Source: Erythrobacter sp.
GTDB taxonomy: Bacteria; Pseudomonadota; Alphaproteobacteria; Sphingomonadales; Sphingomonadaceae
Length of the DNA: 13,294 nucleotides
NCBI GenBank assembly: GCA_002695185.1
Contig: NZOF01000004.1
Span: forward strand, 1 to 13,294
Direction: 5' to 3'
Part shown: positions 4,879 to 13,294 of the stretch, in pieces
Position numbering within the stretch: position 1 is the stretch's first letter
Layout: every line of letters begins with the position of its first letter
Notes under the pieces: model-generated
Seen by the model: only the letters and a program-made list of their open reading frames with translations
Databases searched by the model: none
What the model was told of the DNA's origin: nothing
Program-made: the position numbers and the translations under genes

Positions 4879-6070
4879 ATGGATGTATATGGGAGCGCTT
4901 CCGTTATCGACTTGAGCAAAGTCGGGGCCCGCAACAAGCTTAAGCCGTGGGCTGGAGATGAACCTTACTGGCAGAGGCTGAGGCCACGCGCATTTCTTGG
5001 CTATCGTCCCGCGGGCGGAGGGTCGAGGAACTTGGTTTGCTCGATGTTACGAGCCCGAGCATGGCAAATATAGGCGAAAAGCTCTGGGCGACTTTGGAGG
5101 TGTCGAAGGATTTGAAGTTTTTGCCGTCGCCAAAGCCGAAGTTGAGGAGTGGGCCCGGCAGGTCGACTCAGGTGGGGGCACCGTTGACCGGCCTGTAACC
5201 GTTAAAGATGCCTGTCTCGTTTACCTTCATGAACGCCAAGGGTCTATCGCAGAAGGCGTGTTCCGCAGGCACGTTTTCGATGATCCAATTGCGACCGTGA
5301 AGCTCGATAAACTGAGGCGTCATCATCTTATCTCGTGGCGTAAAAGGCTTGAGGCTGCGCCTGCATTGGTCACGAGATCTAAGCATGGCACGCCGAAGAC
5401 AAAGGCGAGATCGCCCTCGACTATTAATCGGGACATGGTGCCGTTAAGAGCCGCGCTGCATCGCGTTTTACCACCCGGTGCACCCGGTACAGATGCGGCT
5501 TGGCAAGAGGCGCTCAAGCCGGTCAGGGGTGCGGATCGACGACGAGAACTGTACTTGGATAAGGAGCAGCGAAAATCGCTCTTGAGCAGCGCGGACAGCG
5601 AAATTCTGCCATTTTTGAGAGCGCTGTGCCATTTGCCTTTGAGGCCCGGGGTTGTCGCAAAGCTACAATGTTCAAATTTTGACGTGCGGACACGCACGCT
5701 CACGATCGGACGAGACAAAAACGGCCTATCGAGGCAGCTGTTGGTGTCGTCGACGATCGCGCAGTTTCTGACAGAAGCGCAGAACGGGAAGCAAGGGGAG
5801 CAACCGCTATTCTCTCGAGATGATGGGAATTCCTGGAATAAGGATAGTTGGAAGAAGCCCATCAAGTTGGCGGCATCTCAAGCCAAGCTTCCGCAAGAGA
5901 CTACCGCTTATGTGCTCCGTCACAGTGTCATTACCGATCTAGTGCGGAGTGGCCTTCCAGTGCTTACAGTTGCGCAGTTGTCGGGCACAAGCGTTGCAAT
6001 GAGCGAAAGGCATTATGGGCACTTAGTCCGGTCAGATGCCGAACAAGCATTGGCTGCCTTGGAAATATGA
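4879..6070 (+). pseudogene. Tyrosine recombinase (tRNA-targeting integrase), frameshifted near its N-terminus
   Basis: Two overlapping frames together encode one integrase. The first (4879-5022) gives the N-terminal part, with LSKVGARNKLKP and YWQRLRPRAFLGYRPAGG. The second, from 5024, continues with RGTWFARCYEPEHGKY to the stop at 6070. Dropping one base (T5023 fits best) fuses them into 396 residues, a normal integrase length. Without correction, an ATG at 4997 could give 357 residues (numbering below) that lack the first part of the DNA-binding region. A core-binding domain lies at about 68-160 and a catalytic domain at about 185-350. Catalytic candidates are Arg216 (LPLRPG), Lys241, Arg308/His309 (YVLRHS) and the nucleophile Tyr340 (RHYGHL). 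The first box II His is Tyr305 and the later His/Trp position is Gly330. I recall these substitutions from this sphingomonad integrase type. It would insert and excise the element at the adjacent tRNA-Val site. A sequencing error or recoding could also explain the shift. Confidence 0.82.
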
Positions 6071-6420: not shown

Positions 6421-6642
6421 CTATGGCGTCGCCTCGCCAGTCGCTTCGACATGAGTGCGGTTGCCCGCGTCGTCATATTCGTAATCGACCTGCTCGCCGT
6501 CGTTTGCATCTCCACTGCGCTCGACCTTAATCACCCGACCTTGAGCTTCATAGGTGTAGGGAAACGTCTCTTCGGCCGAGGCGGATGTGGCACCAAGCAA
6601 TACCAATCCAATGAGGATCACGGACGTGCGGATGCGAAACAT
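6421..6642 (-). CDS. Small secreted protein with a single YD-type repeat
   Basis: The product is 73 residues and begins MFRIRTSVILIGLVLLG, a clear Sec signal peptide with likely cleavage after SASA (residue 23). The mature part of about 50 residues reads as little more than one RHS/YD unit: YTYEAQGRVIKV, then a polar insert, then DYEYDDAGNRTHVEA. The two YxY and GRxxxV/GNRTxV elements are the hallmark of YD repeats. It is divergent from the giant YD-repeat protein that starts 237 bases away. The ribosome-binding site is weak (AAGAG about 9 bases upstream of ATG). It could be a small accessory or decoy for the large protein's shell, or the remnant of an older, longer RHS gene; an intact signal and stop make a real gene plausible. 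The YD and signal-peptide calls come from the sequence; the role is unknown. Confidence 0.65.
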   Translation of the reverse strand: MFRIRTSVILIGLVLLGATSASAEETFPYTYEAQGRVIKVERSGDANDGEQVDYEYDDAGNRTHVEATGEATP

Positions 6643-6879
6643 ACGTCATGACTCTTAGCCAACTGGCCTTATGCTAAAGGTGCAATACATCTCTCGAATG
6701 TGCAAGTTGCGTTGGGGAATGATTCTGAACGTTTAGGGGGGGGGGGCTCCGATTAACGCTAAGAGGTTGGGATCGGATGAAAAAATAATGTCCCTTGTAA
6801 TCAGCGGAACGTTCTGAACAAATCGACGTCAGAATCGTGAAATTCGAATCGAGTCGTCAAACGCTGTGGGGATGGGGTG
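6643..6879. promoter_or_regulatory. Divergent intergenic region between the two YD-repeat genes
   Basis: The 237 bases separate two divergent secreted YD-protein genes and must hold whatever promoters they use. I cannot place a good -35/-10 pair in either direction. A run of eleven G (6736-6746) lies about 133 bases before the large gene's ATG, and GTGCAA occurs twice exactly 20 bases apart (6680 and 6700). Confidence 0.4.
6736..6746 (+). repeat. G11 homopolymer upstream of the RHS gene
   Basis: Eleven consecutive G residues interrupt otherwise mixed sequence between the divergent YD genes. Tracts this long are prone to slipped-strand mispairing. In other bacteria, similar runs in promoter regions switch surface genes on and off. 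Here the link to expression is only inferred from position. Confidence 0.75.
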
Positions 6880-9800
6880 ATGGGGCACTGGTATTTTTTG
6901 AGGGCTCGCCTGATTGCGATCGTGGGCCTGGTGTTTCTGCCGCTCGCCCCCGCACTTGCCCAGTCAACCGCGCCTGCCCCGGTGCGCGCGGCAGTTGATG
7001 AATACGGAGTCGACCTGTTCGACGGCACTTATAGTGCGGCAGGGCCCGCCCTTACGATGGGCGGGGAGGATAACGGCATTTCCTACCGTCGCACCAATCG
7101 CGGCGATGGGTGGAGCGACAGTACGATCGGCTATCTTCAGCTTGACGGCAACAAGATGACCGTCAGCATTGGGGGGCTGTCGGACACCTTCACGGACGAG
7201 GGCGGAAGCTATGAATCAACCGAGTGGAATGGTTCGACGCTGACTTATTCCAGTGGCTTGTACACCTACACCCGCAGCGACGGTACGGTCGCGCATTTCG
7301 ATGAGACTCGCTTCAACGAGGACGCGCCTTATGGGAATAAGGGTACGATCACAGACATGGTCATGCCCGATGGAACGCGGCTCGACTACAGCTATTCCTC
7401 GATCACTTATTGCAAGCAGTCCAAGCCTAGCGCGTCCGGGTATATTTGCCTGGTCACGGCAAAGGCCTATCGTCTGGCAAAGGTGACCAGCAGCTATGGC
7501 TACGAATTGCGCCCGGTTTATCCCTATTACGAATGGTTTTACGATCCCTTCGATGCGCCAGTGCTTCCAGATTTCGGGACGTACCGCAAAGTCCTGGGGA
7601 TGACAGGCCACAATCTGGCTTCGGATACCAACGCGGCGGTGCGCAGCCAGTCGTTCGATGTGGTCTACGATGCCGGCAGCAACTGGTACACGATCACAGA
7701 TGATCTGTCGCGCGACACGCGCTACAAGATGGCCGGTGCGGCGGTGGCGGGGATCAAGCTGCCGGGCAGTACAAGCGAGGACATCTCGTTCACCTACACC
7801 TCTGGGAAGGTGACTGCGGTGACCACGCCCGCAGGCACTACGAGCTATGCGAGGAGCGACAGTGCCGGCCAGCGCACGGTCACGGTCACGCATCCGCTCT
7901 CGCGGGTGGAAACCTATGTGTTCGACATCGCCTCGCGAAGGCTCAAATCCTATACCGACCCGGTCGGCAAGACGACGACATACCAGTACGATGGCAACGG
8001 ACGGGTGACGCGCATCACTGCACCTGAGGGCAATCAGGTGCGTTACACGTATGATTCGCGCGGCAATGTCACCGAGCAGCGGATGGTCGCCAAGACGGCC
8101 GGCTCGCCGCCCGATATCGTGACCACTGCGGGCTACGACAGCAGTTGCTCGAACCCGGTCAAATGCAACAGCCCGAACTGGACGAAAGACGCGCTCGGCA
8201 AACAGACCGATTACACCTACGACGCGACGCATGGCGGCGTTCTCACGGTAACCGGCCCTGCGCCGAGCACGGGCGCAGCCCGCCCGCAGGTGCGCTACAG
8301 CTACTCCTCGTATCAGGCGTATTATAAGCACGGCTCGACCTCGCCGACCGCGTCTGGTGTACCGGTCTATCGCATGACGCAGGTGTCGACCTGCATCAGC
8401 GGATCGAGCTGCACGGGTACCGCGGACGAAGTGAAGACGACCGTCAGCTACGGCCCGCAGACCAGCGGTACGGGTAATAATCTGCTGCCCGTCTCGGTCA
8501 CGAAGCAGTCGGGCGACGGGTCGCTCACCGCGACCACCGCGATGAGTTACGATGCAGTCGGAAATCTCGTCTCGGTCGATGGCCCGCTTTCGGGCACTGC
8601 CGATACCACAGTGGTGCGCTACGACGCCCTGCGTCGCAAAGTCGGCACCATCGGTCCGGACCCGGATGGCGGGGGTGCGCTCAAAAACCCGGCGCAGCGG
8701 ATCACCTACAACACGCGCGGACAGGTCACCTTAAGCGAGGAAGGGTACACCGCCGGGCAAACCGATGCGGCGTGGACCGGCTTCACTGCGGGCGCGAGCG
8801 TGGAGAGCACCTATACGGCTTCGGGCCAGGTCGAGACCAGCACGACCAAGAATGGCTCGACCGTTTATGCGCTCACCCAATATGGCTACGACGCGGCGGG
8901 GCGGCTGCAGTGCACCGCGCAGCGCATGAACACCGCCATCTACGGTTCGCTGCCATCGAGCGCATGCTCGCTCGGCACACCAGGCGCAGCCGGGCCCGAC
9001 CGGATCACGAAGACAACTTACGACGCAGCCGACAGGCCGACACTGGTCCAGACCGCGTATGGTACCAGCGCACAGGCTAACGAAGTCACCACTGCCTATA
9101 CCGACAACGGCCAAGTCGCCTACGTCGTCGACGGCGAGGGCAACCGAACGACCTACGAATATGACGGGCATGATCGCCCCATCAAGACGCGCTATCCGGT
9201 CGCTACCAAAGGCGCGAACAGCAGCTCGACTACGGATTACTCGCAGCTGACCTATGGGGACAATGTTCGCGTTACGCAGCAGCGCCTGCGTGACGGCAAT
9301 ACGATCAGCGCCAGCTACGACAATCTGTCGCGCGTCACCCAGCTGTCCGGCTCGACGATCGACAACCGTACCATGACCTACAACCTGCTGGGTCAGCCGT
9401 TGGCGGTGACTTACACCAGCGGTGGGCAGAGCGTGGTCAATTCCTATGACGCCTTCGGCCGACTGACTGCGCAGACCGTGCCGCAGGGCAGCATCTCGTA
9501 CCAGTACGACGTTGCCTCGCGGATGACGCGCATGACCTGGCCCGACGCCTTCTACGCGGTCTACGATTACGACACGCTGGGCCGTGTGACCAAGATCCGC
9601 GAAAACGGGGCAAGCTCGGGAATAGGTGTCCTTGCAACCTATGCCTATGACAATCTGGGGCGGCGCAGCAGCGTCACTTATGGCAATGGTACAACGCGGA
9701 CCTACGGTGTCGATCCGCTGGGCCGACTCCAGGGTTTGAAAATCAATCTGGCGAGCACGAGTTCCGATCAGCTGATCGGCAAGGTCGGCAGCAGCGGTAC

Positions 9801-11133
9801 GGCGATGGCCTATAACCCGGCATCGCAGATCACGAGCATTACGAAGAGCAACGATGCCTATGCGTGGGACGGGCACGTCGATGTGGACCGCGACTACACC
9901 GCCAACGGCCTCAACCAGTACACGGCTGCCGGTGGGGTGTCGTTCGGCTACGACGCGCGCGGTAACCTCACGTCGTCCGGCTCCACCACCTATACCTATG
10001 ACGGGTTCAACCAGCTCAAATCGGTGAGTGGTGGGCCCACCGCCACGCTCACTTACGATCCGGTAGGTCGGCTGTACCAGTTGACCAGTGGTGGCAGCAC
10101 TTCGCGCTTCCTCTATGACGATGGGATGATGGTCGCCGAATATGACGGCTCAAACGCGCTCCAGCGCCGCTTCGTGCCGGGGCCGGGAGTGGACGAGCCG
10201 GTCGTATGGTACGAAGGTTCCGGTACCACCGACCGTCGGTTCCTGCAAGGCGACGAGCGCGGCTCGATCGTGGTGATCAGCAACGCCGCAGGCGCTATGA
10301 TCGCGATCAATTCCTACGATGAGTATGGCATTCCGGGCTCGGCCAACACCGGGCGCTTCGGCTACACCGGCCAGGTGTGGCTCGATGAGATCGGGCTCTC
10401 CTATTACAAGGCCCGGATGTACTCACCCTCGCTTGGTCGGTTCATGCAGACCGATCCGATCGGCTACGCCGACGGGATGAACTGGTATGCCTATGTCGGG
10501 AATGATCCGGTGAATAAATTCGATTCGACTGGATTGTTATGTGAGGATAACGTCGAAGATTGTACAGTTACCGTTTCGGGCTTTAGAGAAAAATGCAGTG
10601 CGGGGTTCACGTGCTATACTGGTCCTGAAATGGTATCTATGCTAAGTAATATGGGGCTCAGCCTCCCCCAGGAATTTCTAGATTCCCATAAGGAGTTCGC
10701 GTTTCTTCACGTTGTTACTGGGAAGAAAGAAAAGAAGAAGAAGCCGAAAAAGGGGGAGAAGCCCGATTACTGCTCTAGCATCGGCTATCGTGTGGGTGAC
10801 TTTGTCGACGGGGCAATAGGTGGAACCTTGCAGAATGTTGGCATTGGCGGTGTAGTAGCGGGAGGCGCAGTAGGATTGGCTACAGGTATAACCGGTGTAG
10901 GAGCAGGTGCAGGTGGCGCGATCGCGGCGGGAGGAGGAGGGCTTTATGCTGTTGGAACAACAGTCTCGACAATTGGTGTTGGAATTAAGTGGTTGAGTGG
11001 ACAAGACCCGGGAGTTACTATGACTGCACTACTTTCCGTGCCCACGATGCGCTTGGGTCCTGCGTCCCAAATCGTAACCGAGCAGGCACTTTCTTATCTT
11101 GGTGAAAAGGCCGTGCCAAACCCATGCGACTAA
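6880..11133 (+). CDS. Secreted RHS/YD-repeat polymorphic toxin-type protein
   Basis: The product is 1417 residues. ATG 6880 follows GTGGGGA (6866-6872) by 7 bases; a GTG at 6877 would add one residue. A Sec signal peptide ends at APALA-Q (about residue 23). An N-terminal beta region follows, then many YD repeats, for example YQYDGNGRVTRI, YTYDSRGNVTEQ, YDYDTLGRVTKI and YTYDGFNQLKSV. The RHS core is RFGYTGQVWLDEIGLSYYKA, then YSPSLGRFMQTDPIGYADG and ending DSTGL at about 1219. Family knowledge: YD repeats build a hollow shell that encloses a C-terminal toxin, released after cleavage at a DPxGL-like site. Here the Pro is replaced (DSTGL). The variable tip (1220-1417) has many Cys, a Lys-rich stretch (about 1282-1295) and a Gly/Ala-rich hydrophobic region (about 1308-1372), and it matches no toxin I recognise. 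Its DNA is clearly AT-richer than the core. No PAAR or VgrG link is visible; the signal peptide points to Sec export. Confidence 0.9.
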   Translation: MGHWYFLRARLIAIVGLVFLPLAPALAQSTAPAPVRAAVDEYGVDLFDGTYSAAGPALTMGGEDNGISYRRTNRGDGWSDSTIGYLQLDGNKMTVSIGGLSDTFTDEGGSYESTEWNGSTLTYSSGLYTYTRSDGTVAHFDETRFNEDAPYGNKGTITDMVMPDGTRLDYSYSSITYCKQSKPSASGYICLVTAKAYRLAKVTSSYGYELRPVYPYYEWFYDPFDAPVLPDFGTYRKVLGMTGHNLASDTNAAVRSQSFDVVYDAGSNWYTITDDLSRDTRYKMAGAAVAGIKLPGSTSEDISFTYTSGKVTAVTTPAGTTSYARSDSAGQRTVTVTHPLSRVETYVFDIASRRLKSYTDPVGKTTTYQYDGNGRVTRITAPEGNQVRYTYDSRGNVTEQRMVAKTAGSPPDIVTTAGYDSSCSNPVKCNSPNWTKDALGKQTDYTYDATHGGVLTVTGPAPSTGAARPQVRYSYSSYQAYYKHGSTSPTASGVPVYRMTQVSTCISGSSCTGTADEVKTTVSYGPQTSGTGNNLLPVSVTKQSGDGSLTATTAMSYDAVGNLVSVDGPLSGTADTTVVRYDALRRKVGTIGPDPDGGGALKNPAQRITYNTRGQVTLSEEGYTAGQTDAAWTGFTAGASVESTYTASGQVETSTTKNGSTVYALTQYGYDAAGRLQCTAQRMNTAIYGSLPSSACSLGTPGAAGPDRITKTTYDAADRPTLVQTAYGTSAQANEVTTAYTDNGQVAYVVDGEGNRTTYEYDGHDRPIKTRYPVATKGANSSSTTDYSQLTYGDNVRVTQQRLRDGNTISASYDNLSRVTQLSGSTIDNRTMTYNLLGQPLAVTYTSGGQSVVNSYDAFGRLTAQTVPQGSISYQYDVASRMTRMTWPDAFYAVYDYDTLGRVTKIRENGASSGIGVLATYAYDNLGRRSSVTYGNGTTRTYGVDPLGRLQGLKINLASTSSDQLIGKVGSSGTAMAYNPASQITSITKSNDAYAWDGHVDVDRDYTANGLNQYTAAGGVSFGYDARGNLTSSGSTTYTYDGFNQLKSVSGGPTATLTYDPVGRLYQLTSGGSTSRFLYDDGMMVAEYDGSNALQRRFVPGPGVDEPVVWYEGSGTTDRRFLQGDERGSIVVISNAAGAMIAINSYDEYGIPGSANTGRFGYTGQVWLDEIGLSYYKARMYSPSLGRFMQTDPIGYADGMNWYAYVGNDPVNKFDSTGLLCEDNVEDCTVTVSGFREKCSAGFTCYTGPEMVSMLSNMGLSLPQEFLDSHKEFAFLHVVTGKKEKKKKPKKGEKPDYCSSIGYRVGDFVDGAIGGTLQNVGIGGVVAGGAVGLATGITGVGAGAGGAIAAGGGGLYAVGTTVSTIGVGIKWLSGQDPGVTMTALLSVPTMRLGPASQIVTEQALSYLGEKAVPNPCD
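10537..11133 (+). other. Hypervariable C-terminal tip of the RHS protein (putative toxin domain)
   Basis: Directly after the core codons for DSTGL, base composition and codon use change: more A/T at third positions, and codons such as TTA, AGA and ATA appear. That is the known signature of exchangeable RHS tips. The encoded ~198 residues comprise a Cys-containing polar part, KKEKKKKPKKGEK, and a long hydrophobic glycine-rich stretch (GVVAGGAVGLATGI and onward), then a polar end with PNPCD. The hydrophobic stretch could insert into membranes, which would fit a pore-forming activity and the membrane-embedded partner that follows. That activity is inference. The stretch could also be a linker. 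Confidence 0.6.
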
Positions 11134-11306
11134 TGCGCGACATTCAAAATTACCTATTCAAGTTTACTGTTTTGATTGTGGTGTTTTTCGGAGCCTTGGG
11201 CCCCGTATTTCGCGCGGATGATGTTGCGCGATATGTAGGTTTTGCGTGCGTCATGATATTGTTCGTTGGCTGTCTCGTCTTGATATTCAAAAGGCCGCCA
11301 GAATAG
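11124..11306 (+). CDS. Small two-helix membrane protein, candidate immunity protein
   Basis: The product is 60 residues from ATG 11124, overlapping the RHS gene by 10 bases. A second ATG at 11133 forms a TAATG stop-start overlap and would give 57 residues; I cannot decide between them. Both imply translational coupling to the toxin gene. Two hydrophobic helices are seen (about 9-29, YLFKFTVLIVVFFGALGPVF, and about 37-55, YVGFACVMILFVGCLVLIF), with a short charged loop between and KRPPE at the end. No family is recognised. Cognate immunity proteins sit directly after RHS tips, and those against membrane-active toxins are usually integral membrane proteins, so location and topology agree. Its DNA is AT-rich like the toxin tip, so the two probably moved together. 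Confidence 0.7.
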   Translation: MRLMRDIQNYLFKFTVLIVVFFGALGPVFRADDVARYVGFACVMILFVGCLVLIFKRPPE

Positions 11307-11715
11307 CCGCGAAGTGAGCCTAGCTTAGCAGACCGAATCTGTGGCTTGCTTGACTCCCTTCCCGGTGATGGGGTCAACGCAGGATTGCGCGGCGGTGGCG
11401 GATTGGGGCTTCTGTTCGTCGGCAGCCCGAATTTTAGAATATCCGATTCAGGCCGGATTACTTACACTAACACCACCACTATCGGTGCTGGCGCGGGCCT
11501 GATCGGTCCTTTGCAAGCTGGGGCGTCCTCAGCAGAGCCCGCTGAAGGGGTGAGCTACGAATCAGGACCAGTTGGCGGACTCTCGTTAGGCGCTGCTTTG
11601 CTGAAATTGGCCAAGGGCGAAGGGCGAAGGGTTGGATATTGGCTCTGTTGGAGGATATGGCAGTTATGCCGAAACTCGGCGTGAGACGATCACCATAGGC
11701 GATCTTGGCTGCTAA
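11307..11715 (+). pseudogene. Orphan RHS C-terminal fragment, broken by a 7-bp tandem duplication
   Basis: The frame is open from the codon after the immunity gene's stop. It encodes a Gly-rich region: GLRGGGGLGLLFVG, ISDSGRITYTNTTTIGAGAG, SYESGPVGGLSLGAALLKLA. There is no RHS core before it and no good start (only TTG 11346, without a ribosome-binding site). At 11613-11626 AAGGGCG is duplicated, which throws translation into a frame that stops at 11684. Removing one copy restores ...KGEGLDIGSVGGYGSYAET and a stop TAA at 11713-11715, one base before an ATG. The composition resembles beta-rich glycine tails of some RHS proteins (recalled, not searched). It is best read as a displaced older tip of this RHS gene, now decaying. 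It could revive by recombination into the core. Confidence 0.65.
11613..11631 (+). repeat. AAGGGCG tandem repeat (2.7 copies) causing a frameshift
   Basis: Two full 7-base units (11613-11619, 11620-11626) are followed by a partial AAGGG. Because seven is not a multiple of three, copy-number change toggles the reading frame of the orphan RHS tip. One unit fewer restores the frame. Confidence 0.85.
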
Positions 11716-11716
11716 T

Positions 11717-11999
11717 ATGACACACGAGCGCGCGACTCCTATTCACGCTGATTGGCGCTATCGCTCTAATCCTGTTACTAGGTTCGATATTGTTATTTCT
11801 GGATGAATCGAGAGACAGTTTTGTGTTCGTAGGGCTGATGATTATTTTATCATTCTTCCTGATCATTGTTGGGCAAGTCGCCTTTCTTTTGACGGCAATG
11901 ATCTGGAACTGCGGTCAATGTGGCAGGCGATATTTTGATATTTTTATGCCCTATTGGCCTTTGAAGAATGACTGTCATAACTGTCACCTCCCAGATTAG
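11717..11999 (+). pseudogene. Orphan membrane/zinc-ribbon protein, putative second immunity gene, probably frameshifted
   Basis: The frame that ends at 11999 is open from 11721. It encodes a first helix (LLFTLIGAIALILLLGSILL), a second (FVGLMIILSFFLIIVGQVAFLL), and then a CGQC...CHNC pair that looks like a small zinc ribbon. No ATG or GTG lies in this frame upstream of helix 1; TTG 11790 would give 69 residues without helix 1. An ATG at 11717, one base after the restored toxin-fragment stop, is in another frame; dropping one base of the ACACAC that follows joins it to helix 1 and gives about 93 residues. I recall small membrane proteins with C-terminal zinc ribbons downstream of RHS genes. 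An immunity role for the orphan tip is inferred. A functional protein from TTG is possible. Confidence 0.55.
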
Positions 12000-12056: not shown

Positions 12057-12527
12057 TCACCCCACCGCCATCTCGACCTCCCGACGCACCCCATCGATCG
12101 CCCCGACCTGCACGCCATCGCGTAGGCCGAGCGCTTCGGTGAGCTTGCAGCGGTTGTCGGTGTAGAGCGCCACCGCATCCCTGGCGCGGCTGATGGCGAC
12201 ATAGACCGCTGGTGCATCGATGGTCTTGGCGCGGAAGCTCTCCAGGTGGGCCATGACGCGATCGGCGGTCGCGCCCTGGGCGGAGTGGATGGTGCGCACC
12301 CACCCAGGGCGGATATGCCGATCGGCGAGTCGGGACAGGTCGAGCGTGTCCTGCTTGCCGTCCTCGCGCTCGACCGTGATGCCGCCACGCTGCGGATCGA
12401 TCCCGACGACGCTGGCGATATCGCCGTTGTTGCGCCCCGCGCGCCGGTTGTTACAGCTGCGGTTGAGTGCTTTCCTACTGGTGGAGAGGTGCGCTAGCTC
12501 AGCAGGCATGAGCTGCCTCCCTGCCAC
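12057..12527 (-). pseudogene. 3' remnant of a TraA/MobF-type relaxase-helicase
   Basis: The open frame gives 156 residues. From about residue 25 onward it matches the end of the helicase domain of conjugative relaxases. RNNGDIASVVGID is the beta-rich segment, WVRTIHSAQGATADRV (77-91) is helicase motif V-like, and VYVAISRARDAVALYTD (108-124) is the motif VI region with the conserved SRAR. Full TraA-type proteins run to roughly 900 residues or more. The relaxase domain (His triad, catalytic Tyr) and the Walker motifs are absent, and the upstream sequence (12467-12772) does not continue the match. This is a truncated gene end, facing the VirB genes. It shows that a mobilisation module was present and has been partly deleted or rearranged. 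It has no activity expected. Confidence 0.8.
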
Positions 12528-12772
12528 TGCATTCCCGCGTAAGAACTGTCTCGGCGGGCGGCCCGGCTTTCTGCCTCAGGACACTGTGTCAGGTGTGTCA
12601 GGGCCAGCGGAGGTGGTGCGCGGGACCGGCGGCGGCTCCACTCGCCTGCCTTATACCCGCCATCTCGACAACCCTAAGATCCGGACCCGCGACCGCCTCC
12701 CTGATGCAGGCCAAACCCATCCTTGATGTGGATGATGATAGTGGTACTCTCGGCGCCAAGAATGGGGGTCAC
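12528..12772. promoter_or_regulatory. Region upstream of the VirB genes, likely promoter/operator
   Basis: These 245 bases hold no convincing gene. They contain the perfect inverted repeat GACAC-T-GTGTC (12580-12590) and a tandem TGTGTCAGG duplicate (12585-12602). A weak promoter-like pair is TTGATG (12723-12728) with TACTCT (12745-12750), spacing 16, about 22 bases before the virB2 ATG. Regulation of the transfer operon from here is plausible but inferred. Confidence 0.4.
12580..12602 (+). repeat. Inverted repeat plus tandem TGTGTCAGG, candidate operator
   Basis: GACACTGTGTC is a palindrome around a central base. TGTGTCAGG occurs twice back to back (12585-12593, 12594-12602). Together they give three GTGTC/GACAC half-sites within 23 bases, a layout typical of a dimeric regulator's binding site, 170 bases before the pilin gene. 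Confidence 0.5.
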
Positions 12773-13075
12773 ATGAATCGCTTTTTCCGCCCCGCGGCGC
12801 TGCTCGCGTTTGTTTCGCCCAGTGTCGCGCTGGCGCAGGTCAGACAGGCCGACCCCGCTGGCTCGGGGCCCATCGTCAATGCGCTGGCGTGGCTGCAGGG
12901 CACGCTGCTCGGCAATGTCGCCACCGCGGTCGCGGTTATGGCGGTGGCCGCCGTCGGCTTCATGATGCTGACCGGTCGGCTCAACTGGCGCTTCGGTGCG
13001 ACCGTCATCATCGGTGTGTTCATCCTGTTCGGCGCGTCCTCGATCGTCTCCGGCATCCAGGCGGCTGCGGGCTGA
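12773..13075 (+). CDS. virB2: VirB2/TrbC-type conjugative pilin
   Basis: The product is 100 residues from ATG 12773, with GGGGG 4 bases upstream. The open frame extends further upstream (to 12593), but that part is Pro/Arg-rich and not signal-like. The signal peptide ends at SVALA-Q (cleavage after residue 21). Two hydrophobic helices follow (about 48-66, NVATAVAVMAVAAVGFMML, and 75-94), separated by the short basic loop TGRLNWR. This is the size and topology of VirB2/TrbC pilins, in which the two helices pack in the type IV secretion pilus with the loop in the lumen. A VirB3-like gene starts 21 bases downstream, as is usual in virB operons. Its GC-rich codon use resembles the chromosomal part, unlike the RHS tip modules. 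Confidence 0.87.
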   Translation: MNRFFRPAALLAFVSPSVALAQVRQADPAGSGPIVNALAWLQGTLLGNVATAVAVMAVAAVGFMMLTGRLNWRFGATVIIGVFILFGASSIVSGIQAAAG

Positions 13076-13096
13076 GCGACCGGGAGGGTCTGGCCG

Positions 13097-13294
13097 ATGA
13101 GCCAGCTTAACCGCACCACGCTGTTCACCGCACTCACGCGGCCGCAGATGTTCGCAGGCGTGACCTACAGCTTCTTCGTCATCAACGTCATCCTCGCGGT
13201 CGAGCTGTTCCTGATCTTCCGTGCCTGGTGGGTGCTGCTGATTGCGCTTGTGCTGCATGGGGTTGCCATGCTTCTATCCCTGCATGAGCCGCGC
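13097..13294 (+). CDS. virB3: VirB3-type type IV secretion protein, partial (runs off the window)
   Basis: The first 66 codons are present. ATG 13097 is preceded by GGGAGGGT (13082-13089), a strong ribosome-binding site with 7-base spacing. The motif LTRPQMFAGVTYSFFVIN and the later FRAWWVLL are characteristic of VirB3, a short inner-membrane protein that associates with VirB4. Two hydrophobic helices are predicted at about 20-40 and 43-60. Most VirB3 proteins have 85-110 residues, so roughly the last third is missing. A VirB4 ATPase gene would be expected next. Confidence 0.87.
   Translation, partial: MSQLNRTTLFTALTRPQMFAGVTYSFFVINVILAVELFLIFRAWWVLLIALVLHGVAMLLSLHEPR

Follow-up and report, generated by a model that had tools for sequence, protein, structure and literature searches.

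A candidate membrane-acting toxin-immunity pair behind the core of a Sec-signal-like RHS protein of Erythrobacter sp., and a TonB-box-like motif in the tips of its relatives

To our knowledge, it is an open question how RHS toxins that look Sec-exported instead of T6SS-loaded reach and enter other cells. A protein of this kind is encoded in the stretch of Erythrobacter sp. DNA analysed here (13,294 nucleotides of contig NZOF01000004.1, hereafter the window), and its locus raises both this question and that of what its C-terminal tip does. We read the RHS gene and the gene following it as a polymorphic toxin-immunity cassette, probably of the membrane-acting kind, and put the probability of this sequence-based reading at roughly 0.6.

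The RHS protein and the end of its core

The frame from 6877 to 11133 on the forward strand is uninterrupted, starts with GTG and encodes an RHS protein of 1418 amino acids with 11 stretches of RHS repeats (PF05593, E = 6.6e-48, Pfam) and an Rhs_assc_core at residues 1147-1220 (TIGR03696, E = 4.1e-21, NCBIfam). Its first part comprises:

6877 to 10536, forward strand: RHS delivery part, with a Sec-signal-like N-terminus (signal peptide by eye), YD/RHS repeats and the Rhs_assc_core up to DSTGL
10453 to 10536, forward strand: putative autoproteolysis motif DPIG-X19-DSTG(L), after the motif DPXGX18/19DPXG described in PMC10684867

The N-terminus resembles a Sec signal by eye, with a possible site between ALA and QS near residue 27. 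When 18 ORFs of more than 1300 aa, the window's included, were compared at this end, a signal-like start was seen by eye in 14; the 18 contain two ORFs whose start is cut off (L081, L092) and two of planctomycete origin (L013, L014). There was no Pfam match to a PAAR domain in the window protein, and T6SS delivery was set aside on this ground. VirB2/VirB3 genes lie downstream of the RHS locus, and such genes also adjoin the RHS gene of Sphingomonas aerolata. The reading of the window protein as a T4SS substrate was dropped because the protein looks Sec-exported.

At the end of the core both Asp residues and the spacing of the autoprotease motif are kept, with Ser in place of the second Pro. 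DSTGL is encoded at 10522-10536, and directly after it the GC content falls abruptly, from 0.605 over 9537-10536 to 0.509 over 10537-11133. An earlier note on this DNA had described the sequence behind DSTGL as AT-rich; the drop is there, but the term holds in relative terms only.

According to its description in PMC10684867, Tse5 of Pseudomonas aeruginosa combines an Rhs shell with a DPXGX19DPXG autoprotease, a motif of the spacing seen here, which frees a pore-forming C-terminal fragment. Tse5, however, is delivered by the T6SS and has a PAAR-like N-terminus in the place of the Sec-signal-like one of the window protein, and the likeness of the two tips is one of description.

The tip, its partner gene and an older cassette

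Behind the core the following features were delimited:

10537 to 10770, forward strand: tip linker, with four Cys and then a Lys-rich stretch, ahead of the toxin module
10771 to 11133, forward strand: candidate toxin module of 120 aa from Cys1299 to Asp1418, Gly/Ala-rich and hydrophobic, with Cys1417 next to last
11124 to 11306, forward strand: candidate immunity protein of 60 aa, or 57 aa from the ATG at 11133, with two hydrophobic spans, overlapping the stop of the tip

The tip (residues 1221-1418, 198 aa) consists of the linker and the 120-residue module. Its description in the earlier note as Cys-containing and Lys-rich, then Gly/Ala-rich and hydrophobic, agrees with what we found: six Cys (residues 1222, 1229, 1240, 1246, 1299 and 1417), a Lys-rich stretch at 1282-1298 and, beginning around residue 1312, a hydrophobic span rich in Gly and Ala. 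The module is 35% Gly+Ala with 8% charged residues, and among 143 tip clusters the last 120 residues rank fourth in mean hydropathy and ninth in Gly+Ala content. GxxxG motifs are not more frequent than in shuffled tips (8 vs. 6.2, p = 0.24), and the glycine zipper pattern occurs twice compared to 2.4 times in shuffles. AlphaFold2 gave no usable fold prediction (pLDDT 35.5 and 38.9).

That the tip has no recognisable toxin fold was likewise borne out, in that its weak library matches stayed below any cut-off (PHROG 12355, E = 0.032). Neither tip nor partner had a match in NCBIfam or PADLOC, and no PDB sequence was found for the tip. No homologue was seen in a word-limited search of 5.8 billion proteins, nor among the plasmids, genome contigs and viral contigs searched, and in 397 genomes of the family there were only weak, composition-like matches. 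In a comparison with 134 further clade tips, the reversed tip scored nearly as high as the tip itself when composition was not corrected for; with composition correction the scores vanished and the reversed tip scored higher. Comparison with the tip clusters by hhalign reached at most 11.9% probability, compared to 36.3% for a reversed query. The tip is a singleton among 146 clusters, and its likeness to other tips appears no closer than their composition.

The partner gene starts either at ATG 11124, with a 10-nt overlap with the tip frame (60 aa), or at ATG 11133 in the sequence TAATG (57 aa). Its two hydrophobic spans have mean Kyte-Doolittle values of 2.18 and 2.75, so that the two-helix membrane protein overlapping the tip stop, as proposed before, was found in either version. 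A database entry of 57 aa (P0002), 100% identical over 95% of the partner and present in 11 contigs, possibly including the window's own record, indicates that the partner is called as a gene. A weak library match, to AA_permease_2 (E = 0.042), stayed below the cut-off, and the searches made revealed no homologue beyond composition. Cell membranes are the probable target of the tip, from which the producer is probably shielded by the small membrane protein.

Directly downstream lie the remains of what looks like another cassette:

11307 to 11712, forward strand: displaced older tip with broken frame, its first piece matching the tip of locus L053
11721 to 11996, forward strand: displaced older immunity-like gene, an open frame without in-frame ATG, with hydrophobic spans and two CxxC pairs

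The Gly-rich first piece of the older tip matched the L053 tip with E = 1.4e-8 in a search among 199 tips, the likeness beginning, by eye, at a Cys. Searched apart among the partner ORFs, the piece 11790-11999 matched the L053 partner (E = 5e-7), so that both pieces point to the same locus. Tip replacement in Rhs and CDI loci leaves such remnants behind the active cassette. The displaced remnants support 10537-11306 as a newer and complete toxin-immunity unit. They also bear on a quite improbable alternative, by which the tip would be a decaying or inert hydrophobic C-terminus of low complexity, followed by a small ORF that arose by chance. Tip and partner, it is true, are without relatives found, the tip is of low complexity and AlphaFold2 gave no model; yet its frame has no break before the stop, on which the partner begins, the Cys bracket is kept and a similar anatomy stands behind other cores, whereas the cassette that did decay looks different, with its frames broken.

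Related cores, membrane partners and Cys brackets

Three features go beyond the earlier note: the displaced older cassette, Cys brackets, and a TonB-box-like motif, which stands out in related tips but is weak in the window's. Relatives of the core were found mainly in sphingomonads (21 loci in a first set, four of them from Planctomycetota), and the nearest ones point to a sphingomonad host for the window. Within the family, 61 of 249 genomes gave a core match (E 0.001), and within the order 87 of 396 (E 1e-15); the genomes of both searches overlap. In several genomes the cores stand in tandem, and every core has a tip of its own. From the regions of part of the listed core matches, 200 distinct tips were obtained, 196 of which are followed by an ORF under the rule applied; they form the 146 clusters mentioned above. 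Three are planctomycete, and the other 197, contributed by the window, the first set of loci (with L005, from an uncultured bacterium) or the searches of sphingomonad genomes, span 87 genomes or records in a hand-made table. Excluded beforehand were core matches that ended before position 95 of 101, tips below 100 aa, tips with less than 300 nt after the stop and identical tips. In the window as in its relatives, the tip varies behind a conserved core and has its own small downstream gene.

Partners with at least two predicted TM spans were found for 10 of the 14 hydrophobic, Gly/Ala-rich tip clusters, of which the window is one, compared to 26 of the 129 remaining (Fisher p = 1.6e-4, 143 clusters with partner ORF); the other four of the 14 have no such partner by the rule used. 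Tip hydropathy also differed between tips with partners of at least two TM spans and those with partners of none (Mann-Whitney p = 1.7e-6). The combination of a membrane-acting toxin with a membrane immunity protein, suggested in the earlier note as possibly new, fits this pattern, but its kind is not new: membrane-depolarising RHS, CDI and T7SS toxins are already known. As to the same pair behind other RHS cores, a like pair exists on a plasmid of S. aerolata, but the searches made revealed no homologue of the window tip itself. The S. aerolata tip (L378) is homologous to that of L105 (E = 1.6e-5); both are Cys-bracketed and Gly/Ala-rich, and their two-span partners comprise 75 and 54 aa.

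An alternative that we consider unlikely is a tip that acts in the periplasm or envelope as an enzyme or binding domain of unknown fold instead of forming a pore. Its hydrophobicity would then reflect an entry or anchoring helix, and the small membrane protein would still be the immunity partner. Some related tips, part of them Cys-ended, do look HExxH-like or phospholipase-A2-like by eye, and the 26 of 129 less hydrophobic clusters have multi-span partners, too. The low charge and high Gly+Ala content of the window module argue against it, as do the lack of a recognisable catalytic-looking motif and of a family match.

The closest working parallel to the pair, as an analogy and not as membership, is the CDI type-10 ionophore family, whose members, as described in PMC11630599, share only a putative glycine zipper and whose CdiI proteins are very hydrophobic two-helix hairpins of 72-100 aa. 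The window partner shows two hydrophobic spans by Kyte-Doolittle, but with 57-60 aa it falls below this range. The type-10 toxins are carried by CdiA, with a separate entry domain, and AlphaFold2 predicts a five-helix bundle for them, whereas the window tip is carried by an RHS core, lacks a confident model and a GxxxG excess, and has a Cys bracket. By their descriptions, CdzC/CdzD of Caulobacter (PMC5380434), glycine-zipper killing proteins in bacterial competition, and EsxX of the S. aureus T7SS (PMC12744356), a glycine-zipper competition toxin that depolarises membranes, are comparable, too; both are delivered otherwise than by RHS.

A Cys within the last eight residues was found in 101 of 200 tips, while about 13% are expected from a Cys frequency of 1.7%. 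The value for control tips is 18 of 68; these are RHS tips of at least 60 aa (median 150, kinship among them not stated) from genomes drawn from the phylum Pseudomonadota minus those in the sphingomonad samples. Counted by cluster, the C-terminal Cys accompanies partners with at least two TM spans in 28 of 36 cases, compared to 42 of 107 for the others (p = 8.5e-5). Swap points were checked in 35 tip pairs whose local alignment starts close to the core and ends early. In the L085 pair and in several pairs from a single genome (L175/L215), both sequences reach a Cys 0 to 5 residues after the point of divergence. The distance to the Cys is 5 and 9 residues in L018/L166, and in L012/L016 it is 3 residues in one tip but 18 in its counterpart. 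The majority of the other pairs lack a Cys at the break, and many of those alignments look spurious. The module boundary in the window was placed at Cys1299 because related tips diverge at or near a Cys. We infer that the toxin module is exchanged as a unit running from Cys to Cys, whose ends may be joined by a disulfide in the periplasm.

A TonB-box-like motif and a possible route of entry

In the linkers of many related tips we detected a motif resembling the TonB box of sphingomonad TonB-dependent receptors, with a weak counterpart in the window:

10555 to 10587, forward strand: weak TonB-box-like motif EDCTVTVSGFR, residues 1227-1237, a regex match 7 residues after DSTGL

The expression [IVLT][IVTLE]V[TS][AG]x[RK], written after the motif had been seen in the tips, the window's included, occurs in 37 of 200 tips, compared to a mean of 0.57 (maximum 3) in 200 shuffling rounds. 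A position weight matrix (PWM) was built from receptors only, namely the 24 of 30 Plug-selected ones in which a similar pattern was found, and is not fully blind because its receptors were chosen by that pattern. It exceeded the 1% shuffle threshold in 50 of 200 tips, which come from 37 genomes and represent 38 of 144 toxin clusters, leaving 150 tips without clear motif; none of the 68 control tips passed (Fisher p = 1.1e-7). Passes were concentrated in the first halves of the tips (48 vs. 3 in the second halves). The L378 tip, outside the 200, has no such motif by eye. The window motif scores 6.6 and stays below the 5% threshold of 8.26 of this receptor-trained matrix, while the chance of a match to the post hoc regex in its shuffled linker is 0.095%.

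The motif comes behind the site at which release is predicted and would stand near the new N-terminus of a tip released at the core; its presence ahead of many toxin clusters gives it the look of a delivery element. ColM-type and group B colicins carry a TonB box in their unstructured N-terminal part for crossing the outer membrane, and as described in PMC5821083 and PMC11658791 this box belongs to the travelling toxin, with exchangeable toxin domains behind it, much like the arrangement in the clade tips. These colicins are free bacteriocins and not RHS proteins, whereas the clade motif sits in a tip linker and is a putative TonB box. By this analogy the motif suggests a colicin-like, TonB-driven passage, a short tag by which related tips may borrow nutrient importers. 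Sphingomonads are rich in TonB-dependent receptors, with 153 reported in S. wittichii RW1 (PMC7142613). The clade-level TonB-box-like motif in RHS tip linkers is new, as far as open-licence PubMed Central texts go: no report of RHS toxin tips with a TonB box was found there, partly by title, nor one linking Sec-signal RHS proteins and TonB in Alphaproteobacteria or one on polymorphic RHS toxins of sphingomonads. Papers that pair the TonB box with polymorphic toxins dealt, by title, with bacteriocins or with Ton and Tol.

Two other explanations of the motif in the sister tips have to be weighed. It is unlikely to be a signature that linkers of exported sphingomonad proteins share in general and that is unrelated to TonB. 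The strict DNA form IVVT[AG]xR occurs 61 times in three sphingomonad genomes (reversed control: 1), and 55 of these occurrences match TonB-dependent receptors by phmmer (26/30 and 29/31) with three more recognised by eye. That leaves three outside receptor N-termini, including the small, plausibly exported L245 and the Pro-rich L359, which would fit a general signature; against this, the matrix passed in none of the 196 partner ORFs and in a single one of 183 RHS core stretches. Rather improbable, too, is a role in export, TonB pulling the tip or the RHS protein out through a TonB-dependent transporter like PopC/Oar in Myxococcus, where TonB-dependent secretion of PopC is described (PMC11658791). 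The full-length relatives look Sec-signal-like by eye, so that a route out of the periplasm would be needed, and the motif also occurs in L245 as a small exported non-receptor protein. Being located behind the release site, within the portion that would travel independently, the motif instead resembles in position the N-terminal TonB box of colicin type.

The toxin-immunity reading can be extended to a sequence of events, which as a whole we regard as somewhat better than an even chance. The RHS protein would be exported by Sec, its shell would wrap the C-terminal tip, and it would cut the tip off after DSTGL, as suggested by an aspartyl-protease motif that is conserved for the most part. Once free, the tip would consist of a loose linker and the Cys-bracketed 120-residue module which, to judge from its composition and the type of its partner, would insert into a competitor's inner membrane and make it permeable to ions. 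In the producer, the overlapping two-helix protein would sit in the membrane and block the tip. This newer cassette would have taken the place of the older one, of which broken remnants are left immediately downstream. For the outer membrane, TonB-driven passage through a TonB-dependent receptor, as in group B colicins, would be the likely route because a quarter of the sister tips carry the TonB-box-like motif; this applies to the clade and only weakly to the window tip.

More tentatively, and with somewhat less than even odds, a large clade of Sec-exported RHS proteins in sphingomonads, and perhaps Caulobacterales, may release mini-colicins composed of a receptor-type TonB-box linker and an often membrane-acting Cys-to-Cys module exchanged at a Cys, the window pair being one member. 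The window pair itself adds a membrane-type toxin-immunity set outside all family libraries searched, and the Cys brackets together with the association of hydrophobic tips and multi-span partners offer a way to find more such pairs. If the released tips do carry a TonB box, this would answer the entry half of the question for Sec-exported-looking RHS toxins and explain the many unrelated toxins in one RHS family; entry would then proceed via the many TonB-dependent receptors of sphingomonads, with no need of a T6SS or a CDI filament.

Receptor gene and TonB-box-like motifs

Upstream of the RHS gene, the window contains two adjoining genes:

57-1703: lipoprotein-like protein of 548 aa
1806-4559: TonB-dependent receptor (Plug, E 8.3e-10; TonB-box PWM score 16.7)

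For the lipoprotein-like protein no Pfam match was obtained. TonB-box-like sequences were detected outside sphingomonad RHS tips, too. A small protein encoded at L245 (G001:C24; 184-aa frame) exhibits a signal-like start shortly followed by DDIVVTATR, and judging from this sequence further soluble proteins may carry TonB boxes. The RHS tip of the Asticcacaulis plasmid locus L377 contains QEVVVVGKRR in front of a putative Hint domain, so that the range of the motif may extend to Caulobacterales.

Tips, partners and a displaced cassette

At L084/L085 (genome G007, with 19 core matches), L078 (G109) and L130 (G034), RHS core ends are strung together in long tandem arrays, and every core end is followed by a different tip and partner. 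The Cys-rich tips of L054, L085_3407, L114, L166 and L215_1333 are homologous to one another and, inspected by eye, appear to resemble phospholipase A2, showing an HDxC pattern. Downstream of its RHS gene the window harbors an older cassette:

11307-11996: displaced RHS tip and immunity-like gene

Both frames are broken here, whereas those of the relatives at locus L053 are open.

Possible inserted element and conjugation-type genes

The GC content of the window falls to about 0.55 beginning at 4.5 kb, hinting at an inserted element. Further genes surrounding the RHS gene are:

4997-6070: tyrosine recombinase/integrase (PF00589), upstream
6421-6642 (-): 73-aa protein with signal-like start and one RHS repeat, divergent, immediately upstream
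12057-12527 (-) and 12593-13294: helicase-like fragment and VirB2/VirB3 genes

A smaller RHS-repeat gene likewise precedes the RHS gene of L377. On the Sphingomonas aerolata plasmid (L378), VirB2-VirB3-VirB4 genes adjoin the RHS gene. The presence of VirB genes beside RHS genes both there and in the window indicates that some such RHS genes are carried on conjugation-type DNA.
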